A DNA stretch of 49,279 bases from positions 1 to 49,279 of the forward strand of contig JALVVN010000028.1 of the NCBI GenBank assembly GCA_027023405.1. The letters run 5' to 3'. The position numbers and the translations under genes were made by a program. Below, one piece after another: positions 3,897-15,419 of the stretch; positions within the stretch are counted from its first letter, which is position 1, and each line of letters begins with the position of its first letter. Below the pieces are notes generated by a model. That model did no database searches. It was given only the letters and a program-made list of their open reading frames with translations, and was not told where the DNA came from. This stretch comes from Campylobacterales bacterium (GTDB lineage Bacteria > Campylobacterota > Campylobacteria > Campylobacterales > QNZT01).

Positions 3897-3925
3897 CCAA
3901 TAAATTGCCGTAGGTAATTTATTGG
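3897..3925. repeat. Perfect 10-bp inverted repeat (hairpin 2) at the toxin stop codon
   Basis: CCAATAAATT and AATTTATTGG flank a 9-nt loop, 10 bp from hairpin 1. The right arm contains the toxin's stop codon on the minus strand. The two hairpins together mark the boundary between the toxin-antitoxin module and the fic remnant. Confidence 0.6.
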
Positions 3926-4239
3926 TTACTCTGACTTGTTATACTCTTTTGATGGTTTTCAAGAAGTCTTTTGCCATGCACTACAGCTACCAATAAAATT
4001 TCCTGTGCATTTACTTTATAGATTAGTCTGTAGCTATAAACAAATATTTCACGAATCATTGGGTCGTTGAATTCTGGAACTTTTCTACCTAATTCCGAAA
4101 ATTCCTGTAGCATTTCTGCTTTTTCAAAAAATTTTGAAACAACCGATTTTGCGTAAATCGGAGAATCCTTTTTTATATATGTTGCGATTGATTCGATATC
4201 TTCAAGAGCCTCCTCTGACCACTTTAGAGTGAAAGCCAT
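3919..4239 (-). CDS. RelE/ParE-superfamily toxin
   Basis: The 106-residue protein has the ParE layout: the start FTLKWSEEALEDIESIATYI, the central FSELGRKVPEFND motif, an IREIFVYSYRLIYKV strand, and a VVHGKRLL strand near the C-terminus. ParE-type toxins poison gyrase and RelE-type toxins cleave mRNA on ribosomes; the R-P-spaced 'GRKVPE' core favours the ParE side. It overlaps the upstream antitoxin by 16 bp, the normal translational coupling of such pairs. The C-terminal tail (SITSQSNQ) runs into hairpin 2 and may be altered by it. Confidence 0.85.
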   Translation of the reverse strand: MAFTLKWSEEALEDIESIATYIKKDSPIYAKSVVSKFFEKAEMLQEFSELGRKVPEFNDPMIREIFVYSYRLIYKVNAQEILLVAVVHGKRLLENHQKSITSQSNQ

Positions 4240-5431: not shown

Positions 5432-5851
5432 ATGTTGGAGTGTATCAATGAGACCGATATTTCTGTCGATCTCTCGCTTTTGGAGCGGATTGCTGAGGAT
5501 TTGAGCGATCGTGGCGTGGAGTTGAGCTTTGTCACGGATGAAGTGATGCAGGAGCTCAATCATGCGCATCGCGGTATCGATCGTCCGACCGATGTGCTCT
5601 CTTTTCCCGTCGATCCCTTTCCGATGGCACCGCTAGGTGAGATCGTCATCAATCTTGATCGTGCCAAAATAGATGCCAATCGGTTGGGGCATACGCTCGA
5701 TCAGGAGGTGGCGCTTCTCTTTATTCACGGGATGCTTCATCTGCTGGGGATGGATCATGAGATCGATGACGGAGAGATGCGAAAACGGGAGCGAGAATTG
5801 ATTTTAGAGTATGGTTTACCAGAGAGTTTGATAGTAAGGAGTGAGGGATGA
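5432..5851 (+). CDS. ybeY: Endoribonuclease YbeY
   Basis: The 139-residue protein has the hallmark zinc site HGMLHLLGMDHE (H99, H103, H109), preceded by the conserved PTDVLSFP loop near residue 52 and the GEIVIN strand. YbeY is a single-strand endoribonuclease needed for 16S rRNA 3'-end maturation and ribosome quality control. Length is normal. The stop codon overlaps the start of the antiporter gene (ATGA), so the two are co-translated. The ATG at 5432 has AAAGGGG upstream. Confidence 0.93.
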   Translation: MLECINETDISVDLSLLERIAEDLSDRGVELSFVTDEVMQELNHAHRGIDRPTDVLSFPVDPFPMAPLGEIVINLDRAKIDANRLGHTLDQEVALLFIHGMLHLLGMDHEIDDGEMRKRERELILEYGLPESLIVRSEG

Positions 5852-6786
5852 TTTGGGATTTTGTGATCTTTGCGGTGGCGATGTTTGCCTTGACCAAGGG
5901 AGCGGATTTTGTGATTGATGAGAGTGAGAAGATAGCGATTCATTACGGTATCTCTCAGTATGTCATCGGTGCGACGCTGGTAGCGCTGGGGACGAGTCTT
6001 CCAGAGATGGCATCGAGTATGATGGCGGCGTACGATGGGCGCAACGAAATGGCAGTCGCCAATGTGATTGGTAGCAATATCATCAATATCGCGCTGGTGC
6101 TGGGGATCGTTTTTGTGATCAGCAGTCGTATTATGCCTGATCGGGATATCTTCGGAAAGGACGGTGCATGGGGGATCTTTCCCGTGATGGTCTTTATCGT
6201 GATGGTGATCGATGGAAGCGTATCGCGGTTTGAGGGGTTTTTACTGTTGGTGATGATGGGCGCCTATATTCTCTTTTTGATCCAAAATGATGATGAGATT
6301 ATCGATCAAGTCGATGAGGATCTCTCCAAGGAGCCGTTTGCGTGGAAGCCGACGCTGTTGCTGTTGTTAGCCGGTTTTGTGTTGGTGATCGTGGGGGCAA
6401 ATTTTGCGGTGGATGCAGCGGGTAATATCGCTCGGGCGTTTGGTGTGAGCGAGTGGGTGATCGGTCTGTTGTTGGTGGCATTTGGTACGAGTCTGCCCGA
6501 ATTGATGGTCGCACTCTCCGCCGCCAAAAAGGGCAACGGCGATATGGTGCTTGGCGGGATCATCGGGAGCAATGTCTCAAACTTCACCGTTGTTTTGGGC
6601 GGATCGGCACTGATCCACCCTCTAGCGGTCGATCTTGCCAAAAATGCCTTTGATATCTTTAGTGTGTTGGCGATCACATTGATGCTCGTTTTTATCACCG
6701 CGAACAAACTCTACACCAAATCGGCAGGAATTGTGCTTCTGATTATGATGGCACTTGTGATAGAACATAGTGTGAATCAATTTTAG
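5848..6786 (+). CDS. CaCA-family calcium/sodium antiporter (YrbG type)
   Basis: The product is 312 residues and about ten membrane helices arranged as two inverted halves. Each half carries an alpha repeat: GATLVALGTSLPEMASS near residue 41 and LLVAFGTSLPELMVAL near residue 207, with a paired IGSNIINI / IGSNVSNF motif after each. The acidic residues in GTSLPE bind the cation. Such proteins export Ca2+ (or K+/Na+-linked Ca2+) across the inner membrane. The acidic linker near residue 150 (DDEIIDQVDED) is the cytoplasmic loop between the halves. It is coupled to ybeY upstream and lies 8 bp before the 885-aa gene. Confidence 0.9.
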   Translation: MIWDFVIFAVAMFALTKGADFVIDESEKIAIHYGISQYVIGATLVALGTSLPEMASSMMAAYDGRNEMAVANVIGSNIINIALVLGIVFVISSRIMPDRDIFGKDGAWGIFPVMVFIVMVIDGSVSRFEGFLLLVMMGAYILFLIQNDDEIIDQVDEDLSKEPFAWKPTLLLLLAGFVLVIVGANFAVDAAGNIARAFGVSEWVIGLLLVAFGTSLPELMVALSAAKKGNGDMVLGGIIGSNVSNFTVVLGGSALIHPLAVDLAKNAFDIFSVLAITLMLVFITANKLYTKSAGIVLLIMMALVIEHSVNQF

Positions 6787-6794
6787 GAGCGTTT

Positions 6795-9452
6795 ATGCGT
6801 ATTGGAGTCTGGTTTGCGTTGTTAGTGAGTGTGGAGCTTGTAGCCAAGGATATTGCCCTGCCGGGTGATAGCTATGAGTCGATCCAAAACGGAGATATCG
6901 AGATGATCTACGACAGAGATCACCGCACGATCGCCCCGACTTTGGTGCAAAAAGAGCAGGAGGTGATTGAGGATTATCAAAAGAGTTTCGGCTTCAAGCT
7001 CGATGACAAACTCTATATGGGACTTCTTTCCACACGAAATCAGATCGCAAACGCCTTCTCAACACAGATGCCACTCAATATGCAGATGGATTACGGCGCG
7101 GGAACGCTCTATTATGATAGGTTTGCGTCCAAAAGCTGGATCGACATGCTCCTCTTTCACGAGAGTGCGCACAACTTTCAAAACAACCCCAAGAAAAACC
7201 CTCTCTCCAGATGGGCTCACAAGATTTTTAAAAACAGCTTTTACAGTGGTACGATCATCCCGATCTTTCCCGTCCCGAACAATCTCTGCTCCCCCTTTAT
7301 GATGGAGGGAAACGCTGTCCTAAACGAGTCGCTACACGACAACGGTGGGCGACTCTTTAGCGGCGCGACACTCGCGATCGGCGCGACCCAAGCTAGAGCG
7401 GGATATATCACACCTGAACGCACCTACAACCAACACCTCTTTTTTCCTTACGGACGACACAACTACCTCATAGGCGGGCTCTTTTCGCAATTTTTGGCGG
7501 AGCGTTTCGGCGTGGATCGCACTAACCGCTACTTTTACAACCACTCAGGGCAGTGGATACCGATCTTTACCGAACACGCTTTTAGAGAGAGTTTTGGGAT
7601 CAGCTATACCCAAGCGATCGAAGCGTTTAATAAATGGATCACAGCGCGCACACAAGGATTTATCGCCACCAAAGGGGAGCTACTCGCACACGCCAAAGCA
7701 CAAACCACGCTAAACCGTGTGGGAGATGAGATCCTCTTTGTCGGCTCAAATGATCGCCAAATCCCCTATCTCTACCGGTACGATCGTAAGCGCCACACAC
7801 TTCAAAAGCATCACACTACACTCCCAAACGGAAAAATATTTAAGATCAACGGTCACTATTACAGCCGATGTTCTGCACACACTTCCCCGACACACATCAG
7901 CGCCGGACTCTTTGACCAAGAGGGCAATCCCTATGTACCGGCTCTTTCCAAAGTGGTGCAAAGTATCGATCCTGATGGCGCAGATCTGATCTACTTCGAC
8001 ATTCCCCGATCTCTCTCACAACCTGTCGCCTTTCGCAAAGATCAGAAGATCGGACGGGTAAACTCCTCCATCTTCAAAGATGATGCGGGGCATCTCTACT
8101 ACTTCAAGCAAGAGGGTGATAAGCGTACTCTCTATCGGGATACTCAACCACTTTTTCACTACCGAGGATGGTACGGTTTTGTCGCCGATGTAGATCGGGC
8201 GGGGCGTATCTATATCGTCGCCGATAGTAGCGTCGGGAGTACCGTTTACCGCTACGATCGGGGTGATCTCGTGCGTATTTTGGCAGGAGATGATCTCCTC
8301 GATGCCAAAGTGATCGATGCAGATCATCTTTTGGTTGAGCGGGTAAGTGCGGAGGGGATTGACTTTATGGTCGCAAAAACCAAAGTGATGCACAGCGAAA
8401 TCGCTTTTATACACCCCAATCTACCCACCTTTGCAAAGAGTAGTAGTGGGCATGCGCAAGATCAGAAACAGAGAGTCGATCTCTCTGCTCCTCATTCCTA
8501 TACACCGATTGCCAACCTCCACTACAGTTCGCTTGATAATTATGTAACTTATGATTCCGCCAACGGCATCAACTATGATCTCACCGCCAAGTGGAGCGAT
8601 CCGCTTACCCAAAACAGCTTTGCACTCTTCACCAGTCGCTTTAGTGACGATTCGATCGTCGGTGCGGGATATGACAACTCCCAAATGCGTCTGAAGTATG
8701 GGCTCAGTGCCTACGGTGTGCTTGAGCACGATCAAAATATTTCGAGTAGAGGGTATGGACTTAGCGCCTATTTGAGTTACCCGATCTATCGTAAAATGTA
8801 TCAATCGATCGATACCAAACTCTCCTATACGCTTTCGTACGACAGAGCCGATCGGGCACCGCTGACGCTCAATGTAAGTCTGAGCGATGCACGCCATTTT
8901 GGACATAGCATGTATCTCAATAGCGGAAAATTTCTTGATATCACTGCAGGATTGGATCGTGGAGATCTCGCCTACGGTGCCAAAGGGTATCTCATCCATG
9001 ATCTCGGTTCGCAGTGGTATGCAAGCCTACTAGCCGGTGGAGCCCATAGTCAAGTCAACCATCAGGATACAAAACGGGGACTCAAGCTTGAATCCTATCA
9101 AAACCGCCTCAGTGACGCGCTCAACTTTGAGATGCCAAGTCTCAAAAACGATATCTATATCAAGGATATCATCAAAGCCGGTGTTTCCGTCACCAAGGTA
9201 TTGGATTGGCATCACTACTTTTTCACCTTTCCTATCTCTCTGAGAAGGGAAGCTATTAGTGCCAAATACCGTTACTATGATCTAGGCTTTATCAAAGGGG
9301 GGCGCCGATCGTTCAATGAGTATCATATTGGATTACGCGCCGATCTACTCTACTTTAACACACTTGAGCTACCGTTTGAGATCGAGTATATTGAAAACCC
9401 CGATCTCAAAGAGAGTTCGCATTTGAGAGTGCTGTTGGATATGGTATTTTGA
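6795..9452 (+). CDS. Secreted zinc-protease-like / propeller-like / outer-membrane-barrel protein
   Basis: The 885-residue product begins with a signal peptide (hydrophobic to about residue 16). Residues 30-280 form a gluzincin-like domain: HESAH at 122-126 with a downstream EGNAVLNES glutamate at 171, the H-E-x-x-H...E arrangement of peptidase MA-like enzymes. Residues 300-560 contain repeated short strands of the LYRYDR / IYIVADSSV / VYRYDRG kind, suggestive of a beta-propeller. From about residue 580 to the end there is alternating aromatic/polar sequence with many YDS, YGLSAYG and LSYTLSYD strands, ending in LLDMVF with a C-terminal Phe, as in BAM-assembled outer-membrane barrels. I do not recognise a named family. 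A possible role is a surface- or periplasm-facing protease anchored by its own barrel. It is co-oriented with ybeY and the antiporter. Confidence 0.7.
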   Translation: MRIGVWFALLVSVELVAKDIALPGDSYESIQNGDIEMIYDRDHRTIAPTLVQKEQEVIEDYQKSFGFKLDDKLYMGLLSTRNQIANAFSTQMPLNMQMDYGAGTLYYDRFASKSWIDMLLFHESAHNFQNNPKKNPLSRWAHKIFKNSFYSGTIIPIFPVPNNLCSPFMMEGNAVLNESLHDNGGRLFSGATLAIGATQARAGYITPERTYNQHLFFPYGRHNYLIGGLFSQFLAERFGVDRTNRYFYNHSGQWIPIFTEHAFRESFGISYTQAIEAFNKWITARTQGFIATKGELLAHAKAQTTLNRVGDEILFVGSNDRQIPYLYRYDRKRHTLQKHHTTLPNGKIFKINGHYYSRCSAHTSPTHISAGLFDQEGNPYVPALSKVVQSIDPDGADLIYFDIPRSLSQPVAFRKDQKIGRVNSSIFKDDAGHLYYFKQEGDKRTLYRDTQPLFHYRGWYGFVADVDRAGRIYIVADSSVGSTVYRYDRGDLVRILAGDDLLDAKVIDADHLLVERVSAEGIDFMVAKTKVMHSEIAFIHPNLPTFAKSSSGHAQDQKQRVDLSAPHSYTPIANLHYSSLDNYVTYDSANGINYDLTAKWSDPLTQNSFALFTSRFSDDSIVGAGYDNSQMRLKYGLSAYGVLEHDQNISSRGYGLSAYLSYPIYRKMYQSIDTKLSYTLSYDRADRAPLTLNVSLSDARHFGHSMYLNSGKFLDITAGLDRGDLAYGAKGYLIHDLGSQWYASLLAGGAHSQVNHQDTKRGLKLESYQNRLSDALNFEMPSLKNDIYIKDIIKAGVSVTKVLDWHHYFFTFPISLRREAISAKYRYYDLGFIKGGRRSFNEYHIGLRADLLYFNTLELPFEIEYIENPDLKESSHLRVLLDMVF

Positions 9453-10008
9453 GAGGCACTATTTTATCCTGGTTCTGTTTGATATTTCGGTTTTTATAAA
9501 CCTCGGAGTAATCTCGTTGTACTCCACGAGATTTGGTGAAAGCAGATGCGAAAATTTCGTTTTTGTCATTGTAAAATTCCCATGTCGTATTTGACCATAC
9601 ATGCCCCATTCTACTGATAATCTGTGATTTGGCGATAAAACTCAAGTTTTCAAAAGTCGCTTGTTTTGTGATTTTGAGATCGCATTGAACCATCCCAACA
9701 CCATTAATGGGTGAGCAAAGATTGTGGGCAATTTTACCGACTTGAGTGATAAAAACTGTTAAGAGTGTTCCCGATACATGCGTCCATTTAGCTTCTGGGA
9801 ATGATGTATTGTCAGGTATTCGAATATCACCCTTTGCCAGAATATTGTTACCCTTTAACGCACTATCGTAGGGATCTATTTCAAATGATACCCTATCTAT
9901 CAAAATATCCTCTTGCGCATAATTTGGCATGTTCATGCGATGTATTTCATCTCGATTAAGGACTTGTGTTAGCCCATCCTTAACATTATCTAACAAATCT
10001 TTGCTCAT
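9406..10008 (-). CDS. 200-residue cytosolic protein, possibly hotdog-fold
   Basis: No signal peptide or membrane helix is seen. Predicted secondary structure is mostly strands around a central helix (HVSGTLLTVFITQVGKIAHNLC), and the stretch QATFENLSFIAKSQIISRMG followed by TWEFYND and IFASAFTKSRG resembles hotdog-fold thioesterase/dehydratase-like proteins. That resemblance is weak and no catalytic residue can be named. Its 3' end overlaps the 3' end of the 885-aa gene by 47 bp in convergent orientation. The overlap and the lack of a clear ribosome site are slightly unusual, but composition and length argue for a real gene. Confidence 0.55.
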   Translation of the reverse strand: MSKDLLDNVKDGLTQVLNRDEIHRMNMPNYAQEDILIDRVSFEIDPYDSALKGNNILAKGDIRIPDNTSFPEAKWTHVSGTLLTVFITQVGKIAHNLCSPINGVGMVQCDLKITKQATFENLSFIAKSQIISRMGHVWSNTTWEFYNDKNEIFASAFTKSRGVQRDYSEVYKNRNIKQNQDKIVPLKIPYPTALSNANSL

Positions 10009-10103: not shown

Positions 10104-10565
10104 TTAAAAATTTATTATCAAAGCAATTTCATCACAAACCGGAAAGTGCTTACACTTGACGCAGTCCGCCCATATTTTATGTTCAGGTAGTGACTCTTTG
10201 GGGATCTCTATGAAGCCGAGTTTTTCAAAAAAGGCTTTTTGGTAGGTGAGGGTAAAGAGCTGTTTTACACCGAGTTTTCTTGCTTCTTCTTGGCTCTCTT
10301 GTACCAATCGCTTACCGATACCTTCCCCGCGATACTTCTCATCAACAATCAAGCTTCGTACTTCCGCAAGAGTAGGGGAGTGAATGTGAAGTGCAACATA
10401 GCCGATGAGAGTTTCATCGTCAAAGGCGAGGGTGTAGGATCGGATGTTTGTCGCAATCTCATCATCGCTTCGGTAGAGGATCACACCGCTGGTCACTTCC
10501 GGCAGGACAAGTGCTTGCATCTCTTTGATGTGGTGGAGGGTGGCTTTTTGGTAATGGATGGACAT
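10104..10565 (-). CDS. Short-form N-acetylglutamate synthase (GNAT)
   Basis: The product is 153 residues. The GNAT core is clear: the acetyl-CoA loop KYRGEGIGKRLVQ near residue 80 and the AFFEKLGF motif after it. The C-terminal tail IWADCVKCKHFPVCDEIAL, with its cysteine cluster, is typical of the single-domain ArgA-like synthases that start arginine biosynthesis in many Campylobacterota. I start it at the ATG at 10565, which has AAGGAGTG ahead and forms TAATG with the engB stop; a GTG 9 bp upstream is less likely. It is the last gene of the long minus-strand run. A generic N-acetyltransferase is the alternative. Confidence 0.78.
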   Translation of the reverse strand: MSIHYQKATLHHIKEMQALVLPEVTSGVILYRSDDEIATNIRSYTLAFDDETLIGYVALHIHSPTLAEVRSLIVDEKYRGEGIGKRLVQESQEEARKLGVKQLFTLTYQKAFFEKLGFIEIPKESLPEHKIWADCVKCKHFPVCDEIALIINF

Positions 10566-11173
10566 TAGTGACACTCCTTCTGGAAGAGTGAGCCAAAGAT
10601 CGCTTCATTGGCTTCTTGGATACCGCTCTTTTTGAGGTTGGAGACGAGTAGTGAGCCGGGGAAGTCGCGCTTGAGTTTTGTTCGCTCTTTTTGGTTGAGT
10701 TTGTCGGCTTTGGTGAAGATTTGGAGTATCTCTTGATCCCCGCGCTTGAAGCTTTGGAGATACTCAAGCACATCACGATCGATCTCCATCTTCGGGTGTC
10801 GTGCATCGAGTAGGTGGACAAAGAGTCGGATCGAGCTTCGTTTGCCGATAAACTCCGTCAAGCTCTTTTGCCAAATCTTTTTTTCACTTTTAGAGACCTT
10901 TGCATAACCAAAGCCAGGTAGATCGACAAGTCTCGCCTCAAAACGGTCGCCTTCGCAATCATAGAGAATATCAAAGAAGTTGATCAGGCGGGTTTTACCA
11001 GGGGTTGAGGAGCTTTTGGCAAGGTTTTTACGCTGTGTGAGGGCGTTGATAAAGCTTGATTTGCCGACATTACTGCGTCCGAGTATCGCCACTTCACTAC
11101 GATCGGGTGGGAGCGCTTGGGTAATATTTTGTGCGGAGGTGACAAATTTGGCATCGATAAGTCGTAACATCAC
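10565..11173 (-). CDS. engB: Ribosome biogenesis GTPase EngB/YsxC
   Basis: At 202 residues this is the usual length. The G1 loop is GRSNVGKSS (about residue 32), the switch-I region SSSTPGKTRLINFF follows, G3 is DLPGFGYAKVSK near residue 85 and G4 is TKADKL near residue 151. EngB is an essential GTPase in late 50S subunit assembly. It overlaps lptA by 4 bp upstream and the acetyltransferase start downstream, so it is embedded in a translationally coupled operon. Confidence 0.95.
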   Translation of the reverse strand: MMLRLIDAKFVTSAQNITQALPPDRSEVAILGRSNVGKSSFINALTQRKNLAKSSSTPGKTRLINFFDILYDCEGDRFEARLVDLPGFGYAKVSKSEKKIWQKSLTEFIGKRSSIRLFVHLLDARHPKMEIDRDVLEYLQSFKRGDQEILQIFTKADKLNQKERTKLKRDFPGSLLVSNLKKSGIQEANEAIFGSLFQKECH

Positions 11174-11628
11174 TGCTCTTTGACATCAAAGATAAGTTTG
11201 ACAGGTTGATTAGCTTTGCCGTCGATGACTGCTTTGCCGGTGGTGCGATCGATGACCACCTTTTCGCCGGTGAGCTTTTGTCCAAATGCCTGTTCATCCA
11301 GCTCTACGGAGCCCTCTAACTCATATCGTAGGGTGCCTGGATCGTAGAGGAGTCGTTGGGCGTGCCCGACAAAGATGCGATTTTGGGTGTGGATTTGAAA
11401 GGAAACCGCGCCCTCCGCCTCATAGCGTGTTGGCTTGTGTTTGGGATCAAATGCAATGACAAGTCGCCCGGCTTGAATAAAATCCGATCCTTTATGTATT
11501 TGTACATGTCCGCTCAAAACAGAGTTGCCGGATTTCTCATCGACTTCGAGTTTGTCTGCACTGACCTCGACCTTTTGCGCAAAGAGTACGAGTGTGATGA
11601 GTGAGAGTAGTAGTAGCGATTTTATCAT
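11170..11628 (-). CDS. lptA: LPS-transport periplasmic protein LptA
   Basis: The product is 152 residues from the ATG at 11628, which overlaps the lptC stop (ATGA); a longer reading frame to 11733 is not needed. A signal peptide (MIKSLLLLSLITLVLFA) is followed by repeated OstA-type strands (EVSADKLEVDEKSGNSVLSG, HIQ/VQIHKGSDFIQAG, YEAEGAVSF), the beta-jellyroll that bridges LPS from inner to outer membrane. Its partner lptC is directly upstream. Confidence 0.9.
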   Translation of the reverse strand: MIKSLLLLSLITLVLFAQKVEVSADKLEVDEKSGNSVLSGHVQIHKGSDFIQAGRLVIAFDPKHKPTRYEAEGAVSFQIHTQNRIFVGHAQRLLYDPGTLRYELEGSVELDEQAFGQKLTGEKVVIDRTTGKAVIDGKANQPVKLIFDVKEQ

Positions 11629-12149
11629 TCTTTTACCTCTTGTATATAGTGTACCCGTTCCGCTTGCATCTTTTTGTGTAAGAGATCGTAGCGAAATGTG
11701 CTCCCCTCTATTTGGGTATCTTGCTTTTGCCACAGTTTGAATGCCACGGGGCTTGTGAGTACCTTACTACTCATATTATACTCTAATCTTTGTGTAATCA
11801 GACGCAAATCTTGACTGTTTTGGTAAAAAACTTTATCTTCAAACGCTATTAGATGATTTCGATGCGTTGCCGATCCGGCGCGTACTTGATGAGTGAGGTT
11901 GCCCTCTGTGTAGCTTGCATTGATATCGGTGAGTGTTTCATGATCGGCGTAGCGTATTGCTTTGGATGCGTGGATTTGACGCGTGACGCCTTTGGGGGTG
12001 ATAAAGGTACCGTGTAGTTGGGTAAAGCTTAAATCTGTTTGCAGTGCAATTTCATCTTTATGACCGAGATCTTTAGGCTTTTTGGTCGCCAAAAAGGTGA
12101 GTTCTGCCACAAACAAAAAGAGGAGAACGGTAAATATCTTTACTCCCAT
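11625..12149 (-). CDS. lptC: LPS-transport protein LptC
   Basis: The 174-residue protein has a single N-terminal membrane anchor (IFTVLLFLFVAELTFLA), followed by a periplasmic jellyroll with strands such as LHGTFITPKGVTRQIHASKA and DINASYTEG. LptC takes LPS from LptBFG and passes it to LptA. Sequence conservation in LptC is low, so the call rests on topology, length and the fixed order kdsC-lptC-lptA. It overlaps kdsC by 10 bp upstream and lptA by 4 bp downstream. Confidence 0.85.
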   Translation of the reverse strand: MGVKIFTVLLFLFVAELTFLATKKPKDLGHKDEIALQTDLSFTQLHGTFITPKGVTRQIHASKAIRYADHETLTDINASYTEGNLTHQVRAGSATHRNHLIAFEDKVFYQNSQDLRLITQRLEYNMSSKVLTSPVAFKLWQKQDTQIEGSTFRYDLLHKKMQAERVHYIQEVKE

Positions 12150-12634
12150 AACGCCAAAAATGCCTCATAGCGTTGCTCCTCTTTGAGGAGGATTTCGATC
12201 ATCTCTCGTACCGCTCCCTCTCCGCCGTTGTGCGTGAGTATATGTGTGACACGATTGCGAATTTGTGAGACGGCGTTTTGGGGGGCAAAGGATCGGGCGA
12301 TAGATGTTAAGAGTTTGAGATCATTGAGATCATCACCGATCCCCGCTACACTCTCAAGACCAAATTCATACTCTTCTACGATCTTTTCGAGGGTCGCTTT
12401 TTTATCTTTGATACCTTGATACAGATGGGTGATGCCCAGCTCTTGTGCGCGTCGCTGGACGATTTGGCTCTCTCTTCCCGTAATAATCGCCACCTTTTTA
12501 CCCAGTTTGATCCAAGAGGCGATCGCCAAACCGTCTTTGACATCAAAGGATTTGATCTCATCGCCGTTTTGGGTGTAGGTGATCTTGCCGTCAGTCAGGC
12601 ATCCATCCACATCCAAAACCAATAGCTCTATCAA
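12140..12634 (-). CDS. kdsC: 3-deoxy-D-manno-octulosonate 8-phosphate phosphatase KdsC
   Basis: At 164 residues this is a capless C0-type HAD phosphatase. Motif I is LDVDGCLTDG (nucleophile D8, acid/base D10), motif II IITGRES near residue 52, the motif III Lys lies in GIKDKKATLE, and motif IV is GIGDDLNDL near residue 98. KdsC dephosphorylates KDO-8-phosphate to give KDO for LPS core. Overlaps with hisB and lptC show it is read in one transcript with the LPS transport genes. Confidence 0.92.
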   Translation of the reverse strand: MIELLVLDVDGCLTDGKITYTQNGDEIKSFDVKDGLAIASWIKLGKKVAIITGRESQIVQRRAQELGITHLYQGIKDKKATLEKIVEEYEFGLESVAGIGDDLNDLKLLTSIARSFAPQNAVSQIRNRVTHILTHNGGEGAVREMIEILLKEEQRYEAFLALWE

Positions 12635-13215
12635 AGGGTGCCTTTGGTGCTAGGGATACCGATGCGATCATTGTGTGCGACGGCACGGCGCAGTGCAACG
12701 GCAAAGGATTTGAATGCCGCTTCGATGATGTGGTGTCGGTTTTGACCGCGAAGCATCACGATATGCGCAGTGATCCCGGCATTGAGCGTGAGGGCGCGGA
12801 AAAACTCTTCGACCAATTCACAATCAAAGGTGCCGATCATTCCCTCACACGGTACTTCATAGTGCAAAAAGGGACGGTTGCTCAGATCCAGTGCACAATT
12901 GACCGCTGCTTCATCCATTACGACGGTTGCTTCTCCGTAGCGCTCCACATTTTCGATAGGGAAGATTGCCTTTCGCAATGCCTGACCAAGGACAATTCCC
13001 GTATCTTCGACGCTGTGATGAAAATCGACATGTAGATCGCCGTTGCAGGTGAGATCAAGATCGATGAGGGCATGTTTGCTAAAGGCTTCGAGCATATGAT
13101 CAAAAAACCCGATATCGGTTGTGATACTGTTTTTGCCCGCTCCATAGAGCGTCAGTGTGAGGTCAATCTGTGTCTCTTTGGTCTCTCGTTTGATCTGTTG
13201 TGATCCTATTTTCAT
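12631..13215 (-). CDS. hisB: Imidazoleglycerol-phosphate dehydratase HisB (monofunctional)
   Basis: The product is 194 residues from the ATG at 13215, with AAGGATTAAG ahead; a TTG 18 bp upstream would read into rlpA. The two manganese-binding repeats are seen: DFHHSVEDTGIVLG near residue 65 and HHIIEAAFK near residue 160, together with GFFDHMLEAFSKHA. It catalyses the sixth step of histidine synthesis. It lacks the HisN-type phosphatase domain of enteric HisB. It is the only histidine gene here and sits inside an envelope operon, which is a recurrent arrangement in this phylum. Confidence 0.94.
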   Translation of the reverse strand: MKIGSQQIKRETKETQIDLTLTLYGAGKNSITTDIGFFDHMLEAFSKHALIDLDLTCNGDLHVDFHHSVEDTGIVLGQALRKAIFPIENVERYGEATVVMDEAAVNCALDLSNRPFLHYEVPCEGMIGTFDCELVEEFFRALTLNAGITAHIVMLRGQNRHHIIEAAFKSFAVALRRAVAHNDRIGIPSTKGTL

Positions 13216-13216
13216 C

Positions 13217-14173
13217 TTAATCCTTTGTGACAAATGCCCCTTTGAGCTTGTGTTGTTTGATGAAAGCTTGTGCCTTACCGATGCTTTTGAAATTTTTTAC
13301 ATAAACACGGTAGAGTGGTTGTCCCATCACACTCTTTCCCAATACCTCTGTATGATGATCGGCTATTGTAGCATATTTTTTAGCGATCTGCCTTGCCTTT
13401 TGGTGGTTGGTGGTTGAGAGGATCTGCACTTTAAAGGTAGCATTGGAAGTGTGCGTAGGGGGAGTGGTTTTTGGTGTTGTTATCGCCGGTGGTTTTGAGA
13501 TAGAGGGTTTGATACTCTGCATATCAGTGGCGACGGCAGTGGGTTCACTCTTCTCTAGCGGTGAGATTGCCTCTTGGGTTGGCACTGCTGTTGAAACGGC
13601 AGTTTCAAGAGAGTGGGTTGCTTGAGGAAAGGGTTTGTTGTAGCGGTATTTATCGACCTGTGTGTCGTAATCCACCACTTCCAGCTCGACTCTTGCCGTA
13701 CCTTTTCGTATCATACCAATCGCCTCTGCCGCAGCCTGTGAGAGATCGATAATGCGGTTTTCGACAAAAGGACCGCGATCATTGATGCGTACGATGGTAC
13801 TCATGCCGTTATCGAGGTTGGTCACTCTGACACGCGTATTCATCGGGAGTGTCTTGTGTGCGGCAGTCATAGTGGTCATATCGTAGTATTCACCGTTTGC
13901 GGTTTTACCCCCGTGAAAATTGGGACCGTACCAACTAGCGATACCGCGAAAGCGTTGCCCGATGTGTGGCACAAAGGGTTCGTAGCGTTTTCCGTTGACG
14001 GTGTAGCTCTTCATTGTAGAGCGATACATTGCACTGTTAGTGATAGGTTCTTGAGGAGGTAGTGAGCATCCCTCATCGACAATGACACTTCCGTTATGCG
14101 GAACAAAGGGGTTATAAAAGGCACAGCCACTAAAAAACGCAGGAATTAGGACAAAAAAGGAGAGTCGCTTCAA
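13217..14173 (-). CDS. rlpA: Septal-ring lytic transglycosylase RlpA-like lipoprotein
   Basis: The 318-residue protein begins with a lipoprotein-type signal ending FFSGC. The double-psi beta-barrel follows (GIASWYGPNFHGGKTANGE, ALPMNTRVRVTN-like strand, then RINDRGPF), with the conserved His/Asp pair of the RlpA active site. After a Thr/Pro/Ser-rich linker (residues about 190-240), a SPOR domain (FKVQILSTTNHQKARQ, then LYRVYVKNF) closes the protein and binds denuded septal glycan. The gene ends 1 bp before hisB and begins 4 bp after the MltD-like gene, so the two peptidoglycan hydrolases are coupled. Confidence 0.93.
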   Translation of the reverse strand: MKRLSFFVLIPAFFSGCAFYNPFVPHNGSVIVDEGCSLPPQEPITNSAMYRSTMKSYTVNGKRYEPFVPHIGQRFRGIASWYGPNFHGGKTANGEYYDMTTMTAAHKTLPMNTRVRVTNLDNGMSTIVRINDRGPFVENRIIDLSQAAAEAIGMIRKGTARVELEVVDYDTQVDKYRYNKPFPQATHSLETAVSTAVPTQEAISPLEKSEPTAVATDMQSIKPSISKPPAITTPKTTPPTHTSNATFKVQILSTTNHQKARQIAKKYATIADHHTEVLGKSVMGQPLYRVYVKNFKSIGKAQAFIKQHKLKGAFVTKD

Positions 14174-14177
14174 GATT

Positions 14178-15419
14178 TTACCTCATTAATAGTATGGTTT
14201 GGTTGGTTTCAAGACGGTATCCGATATTTGGATTGAGTCTTTGAATAGTAGTGATTTTATTATTAAATTTTAAACTAATTGTTAATAGTGTGTCGTTTGG
14301 TTGGACGACATAGGGAAAAGTAAAGTGAGTAGGGGTATTGTGACCTCTCTTCTGTGCGATGAGTGGTTTGAATGTGATAGTGTGCTCTTTTTCCACTTTT
14401 GCCGGTAATTTGATTTTTTGACCCGCTTTGGCAAAGAGGTGAATATCGGGATTGAGCTTTTGGAGTGCCAAAAAGGAGAGATGAAATTTTTGAGCGATAT
14501 GATAGAGGGTCATATCTTTTGGTGGTGTGTAGAGACCTTTGGCTTTGGCACGATACTCACTGAGTAGTGATTTGGGAAGATAGATAGTGCTTTTTGCTTT
14601 AATGGGATCTTTTTTGATGTGTGCATTGAAGTGCTTAAATTTCTTGGGCGTGATATGATAGATTTGTGCTAGATCGCTGATATGATAGGTTTTGGTGAGT
14701 GAGTGTGGGAGTAGAGGTTGAGTTTTTTTGCGCAGGGTTCGAATAGTTTTTTGAACTGGTGCTGATTGTGCAATGAGTGCCGAAACGATCAAGCGACGGA
14801 TATAATCTTTGGTCTCTTTGGGAAGATAACTGTATCGCGGATCCAAAAGGGCGAAGATATCATCACTTTGCGCTTTTTTAATAGCGCGTGAGAGGCGTGT
14901 CTCTCCGCAATTGTATGCGAGTGCTGCAAGGTACCATTTTTTGAAGCGTTTATGCAGGTAGGAGAGGTAGCGAATCGCCGCTTGGGTCGATTTTATTGGA
15001 TCGCGTCGTTCATCGATCTGTGGCGTCATCTTGAGTTTGAGCAGTTTGGCGGTAGAGGGGAGAATCTGCCACAATCCAACCGCTTTTTTTTGTGATTTTG
15101 CGTGGATGAGAAATTGGGATTCGATCATTGCCATATAGAGAAAGAGATCAGGGACATCGGATTTGCGAATTATTTGTTTGAGTGTGAAGAAAATTTCGGG
15201 ATTTTTCTCAATCGCCTTTTTGAAACTGATAATATCGATCTGTTTGAGTTCATTTAAGAGATTGTTATAGGGAGTATCATAGATAAAATCTTTGTCAAGA
15301 TCTAAGCGCTTTATAATATGAAGTTGTGTCGATTCATCGAAGTTGGATGCAATATCCTTCATATCAAATGCAAAGCTGTGAAAATTGAACAGAAACAGAA
15401 GAAGTAGCGTTTTTAGCAA
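14178..15419 (-). CDS. MltD-like membrane-bound lytic transglycosylase with two LysM domains
   Basis: The product is 413 residues with a signal peptide. The SLT domain (about residues 85-210) shows the catalytic Glu in AMIESQF, then the KKAVGLWQILPSTAK and ALAYNCGETRL motifs of family 1 transglycosylases. Two LysM repeats follow near the C-terminus (DMTLYHIAQKFHLSFLALQK and DTLLTISLKFNNKITTIQR). It cleaves peptidoglycan strands to 1,6-anhydro-muropeptides. The gene is coupled with tatD upstream (7-bp overlap) and rlpA downstream, and all three probably share one promoter further upstream. Confidence 0.9.
   Translation of the reverse strand: MLKTLLLLFLFNFHSFAFDMKDIASNFDESTQLHIIKRLDLDKDFIYDTPYNNLLNELKQIDIISFKKAIEKNPEIFFTLKQIIRKSDVPDLFLYMAMIESQFLIHAKSQKKAVGLWQILPSTAKLLKLKMTPQIDERRDPIKSTQAAIRYLSYLHKRFKKWYLAALAYNCGETRLSRAIKKAQSDDIFALLDPRYSYLPKETKDYIRRLIVSALIAQSAPVQKTIRTLRKKTQPLLPHSLTKTYHISDLAQIYHITPKKFKHFNAHIKKDPIKAKSTIYLPKSLLSEYRAKAKGLYTPPKDMTLYHIAQKFHLSFLALQKLNPDIHLFAKAGQKIKLPAKVEKEHTITFKPLIAQKRGHNTPTHFTFPYVVQPNDTLLTISLKFNNKITTIQRLNPNIGYRLETNQTILLMR

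Follow-up and report, generated by a model that had tools for sequence, protein, structure and literature searches.

The Omp85 superfamily comprises the machines that build outer membranes, together with several subfamilies that carry enzyme or propeller domains and have no known function. Most of its studied members assemble or move proteins (PMC4104836, main text; PMC11116518). The main text of the 2014 survey by Heinz and Lithgow already describes Omp85 subfamilies without POTRA domains, among them WD40-Omp85, which has a TolB-like propeller and no POTRA and is likened there to a BamA-BamB fusion; what that main text says of WD40-Omp85 includes no mention of a protease domain (PMC4104836). 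PlpD, for which the type Vd model of surface display was first proposed, forms a dimer whose enzyme domain stays in the periplasm (PMC11116518).

The window, meaning the whole stretch of 49,279 nucleotides that was analysed, contains an ORF with an ATG start that encodes 885 amino acids plus a stop codon (Table 1). The full-length AlphaFold2 model, computed from a 41-sequence alignment, has a pLDDT of 90.8 and a pTM of 0.90, and it shows a disordered signal peptide followed by an alpha/beta domain, a propeller, a variable linker and a barrel. The first-pass annotation had read the chain as a gluzincin-like protease, a propeller-like middle and an outer-membrane barrel, and this three-part layout, with its gluzincin assignment, is upheld by the predicted structure, by fold matches and by conservation. 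The proposed signal peptide also holds, since the first 17 residues look Sec-like by eye and residues 1-18 are disordered in the model; there is no lipobox Cys within residues 1-17 (also by eye), and cleavage probably follows A17. Searches of Pfam, NCBIfam and the PDB sequences, with the single protein and with profiles, gave nothing above cut-off, and no convincing match came from a viral fold library. This is thus a protease-propeller-barrel protein for which neither Pfam nor NCBIfam has a family, and the label "unknown family" was right at that level. Its domain folds, its invariant catalytic residues, its family and its relatedness to other proteins are supported by computation.

Table 1. 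Features of the protease-propeller-barrel locus (positions in the window)
Feature	Residues	Position	Strand	Basis
Upstream Na/Ca antiporter gene		5848..6786	+	Pfam/NCBIfam and neighbourhood comparison
Probable ribosome-binding site, AGGAG		6785..6789	+	sequence; 5 nt 5' of ATG
Protease-propeller-barrel gene		6795..9452	+	homologs; dN/dS
Sec-type signal peptide	1-17	6795..6845	+	by eye; hydrophobic N-termini in homologs
Gluzincin-fold zinc peptidase domain	19-294	6849..7676	+	domain model; fold matches
HESAH, two zinc ligands and general base E123 (predicted)	H122-H126	7158..7172	+	invariant in 105 + 20 homologs
Third zinc ligand in EGNAV (predicted)	E171	7305..7307	+	invariant in 105 + 20 homologs
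Invariant acidic residue of the E171 helix	E178	7326..7328	+	homologs
Probable transition-state tyrosine of YxxG	Y224	7464..7466	+	invariant; PepN spacing
Six-bladed beta-propeller	about 295-530	7677..8384	+	model; internal repeats; sister family
Variable linker	531-570	8385..8504	+	model; alignment; low confidence 549-559
16-stranded Omp85-type outer-membrane barrel	576-881	8520..9437	+	model; fold matches
Place of the Omp85 loop-6 RG(F/Y) motif, degenerate	R761-G762	9075..9080	+	model; alignment
C-terminal Phe of last strand, beta-signal position		9447..9449	+	sequence; homologs

The protease domain, predicted alone with a pLDDT of 93.6, matches the M30 peptidase lugdulysin (Z 15.8) and the M1 aminopeptidases and M9 collagenases (Z 12-13.6), all of which are gluzincins. 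H122, E123, H126, Q129, E171, G172, E178, Y224 and G227 do not vary among the 105 distinct homologs compared, and H122, E123, H126, E171, E178, Y224 and G227, though not Q129, are also invariant in 20 proteins of a sister family described below, so the HESAH...E motif is not due to chance. In the model, the HExxH motif lies in a helix at 115-130, E171 in one at 167-178 and Y224 in one at 222-238, a placement like that in gluzincins, and the predicted zinc site thereby agrees with the gluzincin-like site first noticed in the sequence. The fold, the HExxH helix and the Glu ligand on a later helix are those of clan MA(E). Y224-x-x-G is spaced as in the tyrosine motif of M1 (E. coli PepN, YEKG), and Y224 was also aligned, at low probability, to the Tyr of Peptidase_MA_2 proteins. 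Sequence matches to described peptidase families are lacking in the searches made: no Peptidase_MA_2 (PF13485) match above the curated cut-off and no match to peptidase family M1 (PF01433) was found in the protein's own genome, the best PF13485 score in a sister protein, 15.4 bits, fell short of the cut-off of 32.4, the direct hhalign comparison to E. coli PepN was not significant, and M30 had the fold match but no sequence match in the PDB. An M1-type aminopeptidase was considered and rejected as unlikely, because the GxMEN motif is absent from the 885-aa translation.

The propeller consists of six repeats of about 38 residues with about four strands per unit by DSSP. Several repeat-repeat profile scores reach 12.6-20.3, above all repeat-control scores (at most 11.4), with one control-control pair at 13.2; the repetitive, propeller-like character of the middle region thus stands. 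Its TolB-like nature is suggested by the model, the internal repeats and a weak profile match, and the direct hhalign comparison to TolB was not significant.

The C-terminal region is predicted to form a barrel of 16 strands, ending in Phe as had been proposed; the last residue is F in 80 of the 105 homologs, L in 13, Y in 9, I in 2 and A in 1. Its fold is that of BamA, TamA, FhaC and Sam50 (Foldseek and VIA-align, Z 15-17 over about 270 residues), and the predicted barrel is therefore of Omp85 type, which refines the generic outer-membrane protein reading. R761-G762 sits in the loop that joins strands 11 and 12, which at 38 residues is the longest of the modelled barrel and an odd-numbered one. 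Most members have R/K-G-V/I at this position, with no aromatic residue, and some lack the motif. There is no POTRA domain in the model, the propeller standing in its place, and no patatin domain, as the N-terminal domain is a gluzincin in the models. In the genome search with PF01103 (Omp85) the protein went unmatched at E<=0.1, none of 64 barrels matched at E<=10, and direct hhalign to BamA/TamA was not significant. The Omp85 assignment is thus based on the fold together with a chain of matches by way of the sister family; no direct sequence match supports it.

The sister family is a large, distantly related gammaproteobacterial one (loci L263-L282). A family-profile search in the class of a Marinobacter genome matched 36 of 369 genomes, a count that includes the centre genome, with a full-length match, and others that match mainly over the protease domain; a phylum-wide search gave more. 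The sister proteins are mostly about 950 aa, and 17 of them align well with each other. Many have PD40 repeats, a TolB propeller model matches all ten scanned (E 1e-11 to 1e-26), PF01103 matches reach 4e-8 and pass the cut-off in one protein, and LRGY is conserved; in none of the ten proteins scanned does the protease part reach a Pfam cut-off. In five loci the sister gene follows a probable argA.

The sister family aligns with the profile of the window family over its full length (817 columns, hhalign 99.9%, E 1e-33), the catalytic residues are the same (n=20), and the reciprocal search from the sister family finds the window ORF with an E of 1.7e-14. Compared domain by domain, the hhalign values are 99.9% for the protease, 31% for the propeller and 31% for the barrel, each domain matches its own counterpart best, and all other pairings are under 4%. 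The sister barrel in turn matches BamA/TamA (95.8%, E 6.5e-9) and the sister propeller matches TolB (98.1%). The bridge from the window protein, whose own propeller and barrel are too diverged for PD40 or PF01103, to BamA/TamA and TolB therefore runs via the sister family only. Along it, Omp85 homology is traceable through intermediate sequences, from window to sister to BamA/TamA, and the window propeller owes its TolB-like character to common descent with that of the sister family, as judged from these alignments. Since the two families share full-length alignment, domains and catalytic residues, the window protein is best read as a diverged protease-propeller-Omp85 protein. The first-pass annotation had called the design unusual; the layout is confirmed, and with a gammaproteobacterial sister homologous over its length it is less isolated than supposed. 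Matches of the A10 profile in 157 of 200 Campylobacterota genomes were not counted, as they are apparently mostly TolB; they are about 420 aa and cover the propeller region only.

By profile search, 51 of the 399 Campylobacterales genomes sampled have a homolog with a full-length frame, a few of these matches being weak or fragments at contig ends. A single-sequence scan of genome contigs gave nothing and the first profile was too diverse, and a closer profile was used in a species-level genome collection, giving 155 confirmed loci of which 80 were kept. The homologs belong mostly to free-living Campylobacterales (Sulfurimonas, Sulfurovum, Sulfuricurvum and Sulfurospirillum-like MAGs), and no relatives were found in the viral contigs and plasmids searched. 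In the tree, one strongly supported clade of marine Gammaproteobacteria (L177-L189, with Marinobacter, Alcanivorax, Bermanella, Aliivibrio and Catenovulum) is nested within those of Campylobacterota, a position suggestive of horizontal transfer from that phylum. Close homolog pairs have dN/dS of 0.08-0.23, indicating purifying selection. The gene is missing from most Campylobacterales genomes, and its role is therefore not an essential envelope function. Two Helicobacteraceae-labelled MAGs carry two tandem diverged gene copies each (L171 323-6053 and L173 662-6392). Another copy (L046, G120:C1:1109654-1112314) is interrupted by three TAA codons close to the start of its profile match, has a remaining frame that starts at about residue 77, and is possibly decaying.

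The AGGAG upstream of the gene overlaps the TAG stop (6784-6786) of the Na/Ca antiporter gene. Together with ybeY this gene lies directly upstream in the same direction (5432-6786), and the order ybeY, antiporter, protease-propeller-barrel gene recurs in the window's taxonomic family and not elsewhere. At its 3' end the gene has a 47 bp tail-to-tail overlap (9406-9452) with a minus-strand ORF of 200 aa (9406-10008) that has no Pfam match. Beyond it lies a convergent envelope cluster (10104-15419, minus strand) of GNAT acetyltransferase, EngB-like GTPase, LptA, LptC-like ORF, likely kdsC and hisB, RlpA-like and LysM/SLT lytic transglycosylase genes, Pfam matches backing some of these assignments only; in relatives from the window's taxonomic family, apparent PBP2 and MreD genes are also found in this region. 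A ParE-type toxin gene (PF05016, E 1.6e-17) is present at 3919-4239 on the minus strand. Across the gene neighbourhoods there is no conserved functional partner, only housekeeping genes within single families, and guilt by association was dropped; because there is no conserved partner gene, any substrate named here is a guess.

The protein is fairly likely to be a zinc metallopeptidase that its barrel ties to the outer membrane, on the periplasmic face; we infer the periplasmic topology, the proteolysis and the class of substrate. The signal peptide would direct export through Sec, and the 16-stranded Omp85-type barrel would insert in the outer membrane. The propeller and gluzincin domain are expected on the periplasmic side, because an even strand number puts both barrel ends in the periplasm, and the long beta11-beta12 loop at the place of Omp85 loop 6 fits such periplasmic termini. 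H122, H126 and E171 would bind zinc, with E123 activating water and Y224 stabilising the transition state. The propeller, between the membrane and the catalytic domain, probably receives or filters substrate as an adaptor. Envelope polypeptides may then be cut at the outer membrane, for quality control or maturation, much as if a protease of BepA type had been joined to an Omp85 scaffold, and such a role is the most plausible guess.

The first-pass annotation had allowed for surface or periplasmic substrates. On a surface reading, the protease and propeller would cross through or past the barrel and act outside the cell, as in the type Vd model. The order of signal peptide, N-terminal enzyme and C-terminal barrel is indeed that of autotransporters, and some of the bacterial M30 and M9 fold relatives are secreted enzymes. 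This reading nevertheless appears unlikely, since about 530 residues in two well-folded domains would need to cross a 16-strand Omp85 barrel, the modelled loops have lengths that suit termini in the periplasm, and in PlpD, on which the type Vd model was founded, the enzyme stays periplasmic (PMC11116518). The periplasmic face is thus the better supported of the two sites, with PlpD as an analogy, and the surface the less likely.

It is also possible, with a similarly low likelihood, that the protein is first of all an assembly or transport factor, its barrel an active BamA/TamA-like insertase or channel and its protease a means of trimming or removing clients. The Omp85 fold, the usual job of the studied superfamily members (PMC4104836, main text; PMC11116518) and the BamA-BamB comparison made for WD40-Omp85 in the survey's main text (PMC4104836) point this way. 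In contrast, the protein has no POTRA domain and a degenerate RG(F/Y) motif, its barrel is less conserved than the protease and propeller among the 105 homologs, and the same genome already has BamA and two further Omp85 proteins. A related and rather improbable idea is a protease-coupled Omp85 machine in one chain, with the barrel engaging outer-membrane clients and the propeller passing them to the protein's own zinc protease; if true, a single polypeptide would here correspond to BAM and a quality-control protease together, in a branch described up to now only as propeller-barrel. A pseudoenzyme that keeps the gluzincin fold as a binding domain is very unlikely, as the complete HExxH, the Glu ligand and the Tyr are invariant in 125 proteins of two families.

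The periplasmic, membrane-anchored metallopeptidase thus remains the preferred reading. The conserved, apparently intact HExxH gluzincin gives a little-studied propeller-Omp85 branch a testable catalytic function, and annotation is gained for about 10% of the sampled gammaproteobacterial genomes (36/369) and many sulfur-oxidising Campylobacterota. The protease-propeller-barrel design is found in many sea-dwelling bacteria.

BepA is a periplasmic zinc protease that acts on stalled outer-membrane proteins, and the way of working suggested here, in which a zinc protease acts on the inner side of the outer membrane, is alike; BepA differs in belonging to family M48, in its TPR domain and in having no barrel, and no relation is claimed. 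Lugdulysin (PDB 7bb8), the best fold match of the protease domain (rmsd 4.1, 233 aligned), has 12% identity, comes from a Gram-positive source and has neither propeller nor barrel. The M1 aminopeptidases (PepN, ERAP, IRAP) and M9 collagenases share the gluzincin fold and HExxH...E, and M1 also the YxxG tyrosine motif, while the window protein is without the GxMEN exopeptidase motif and without a PF01433 match. The patatin-Omp85 proteins PlpD and FplA likewise have an N-terminal enzyme tethered to an Omp85 barrel, but the enzyme is a phospholipase and one POTRA takes the place of the propeller (PMC11116518). WD40-Omp85, as the main text of the 2014 survey presents it, has a TolB-like propeller directly before the Omp85 barrel and no POTRA (PMC4104836). 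The sister family has the same layout by Pfam and NCBIfam and, judging from it, presumably is that cluster; the window protein adds a likely protease domain, which the main text does not give to WD40-Omp85. The 'metalloprotease' subfamily of the survey is defined in its main text by PF00149 (PMC4104836), and since the Pfam name of PF00149 is Metallophos, protease-propeller-Omp85 may be the better-founded protease-Omp85 design.
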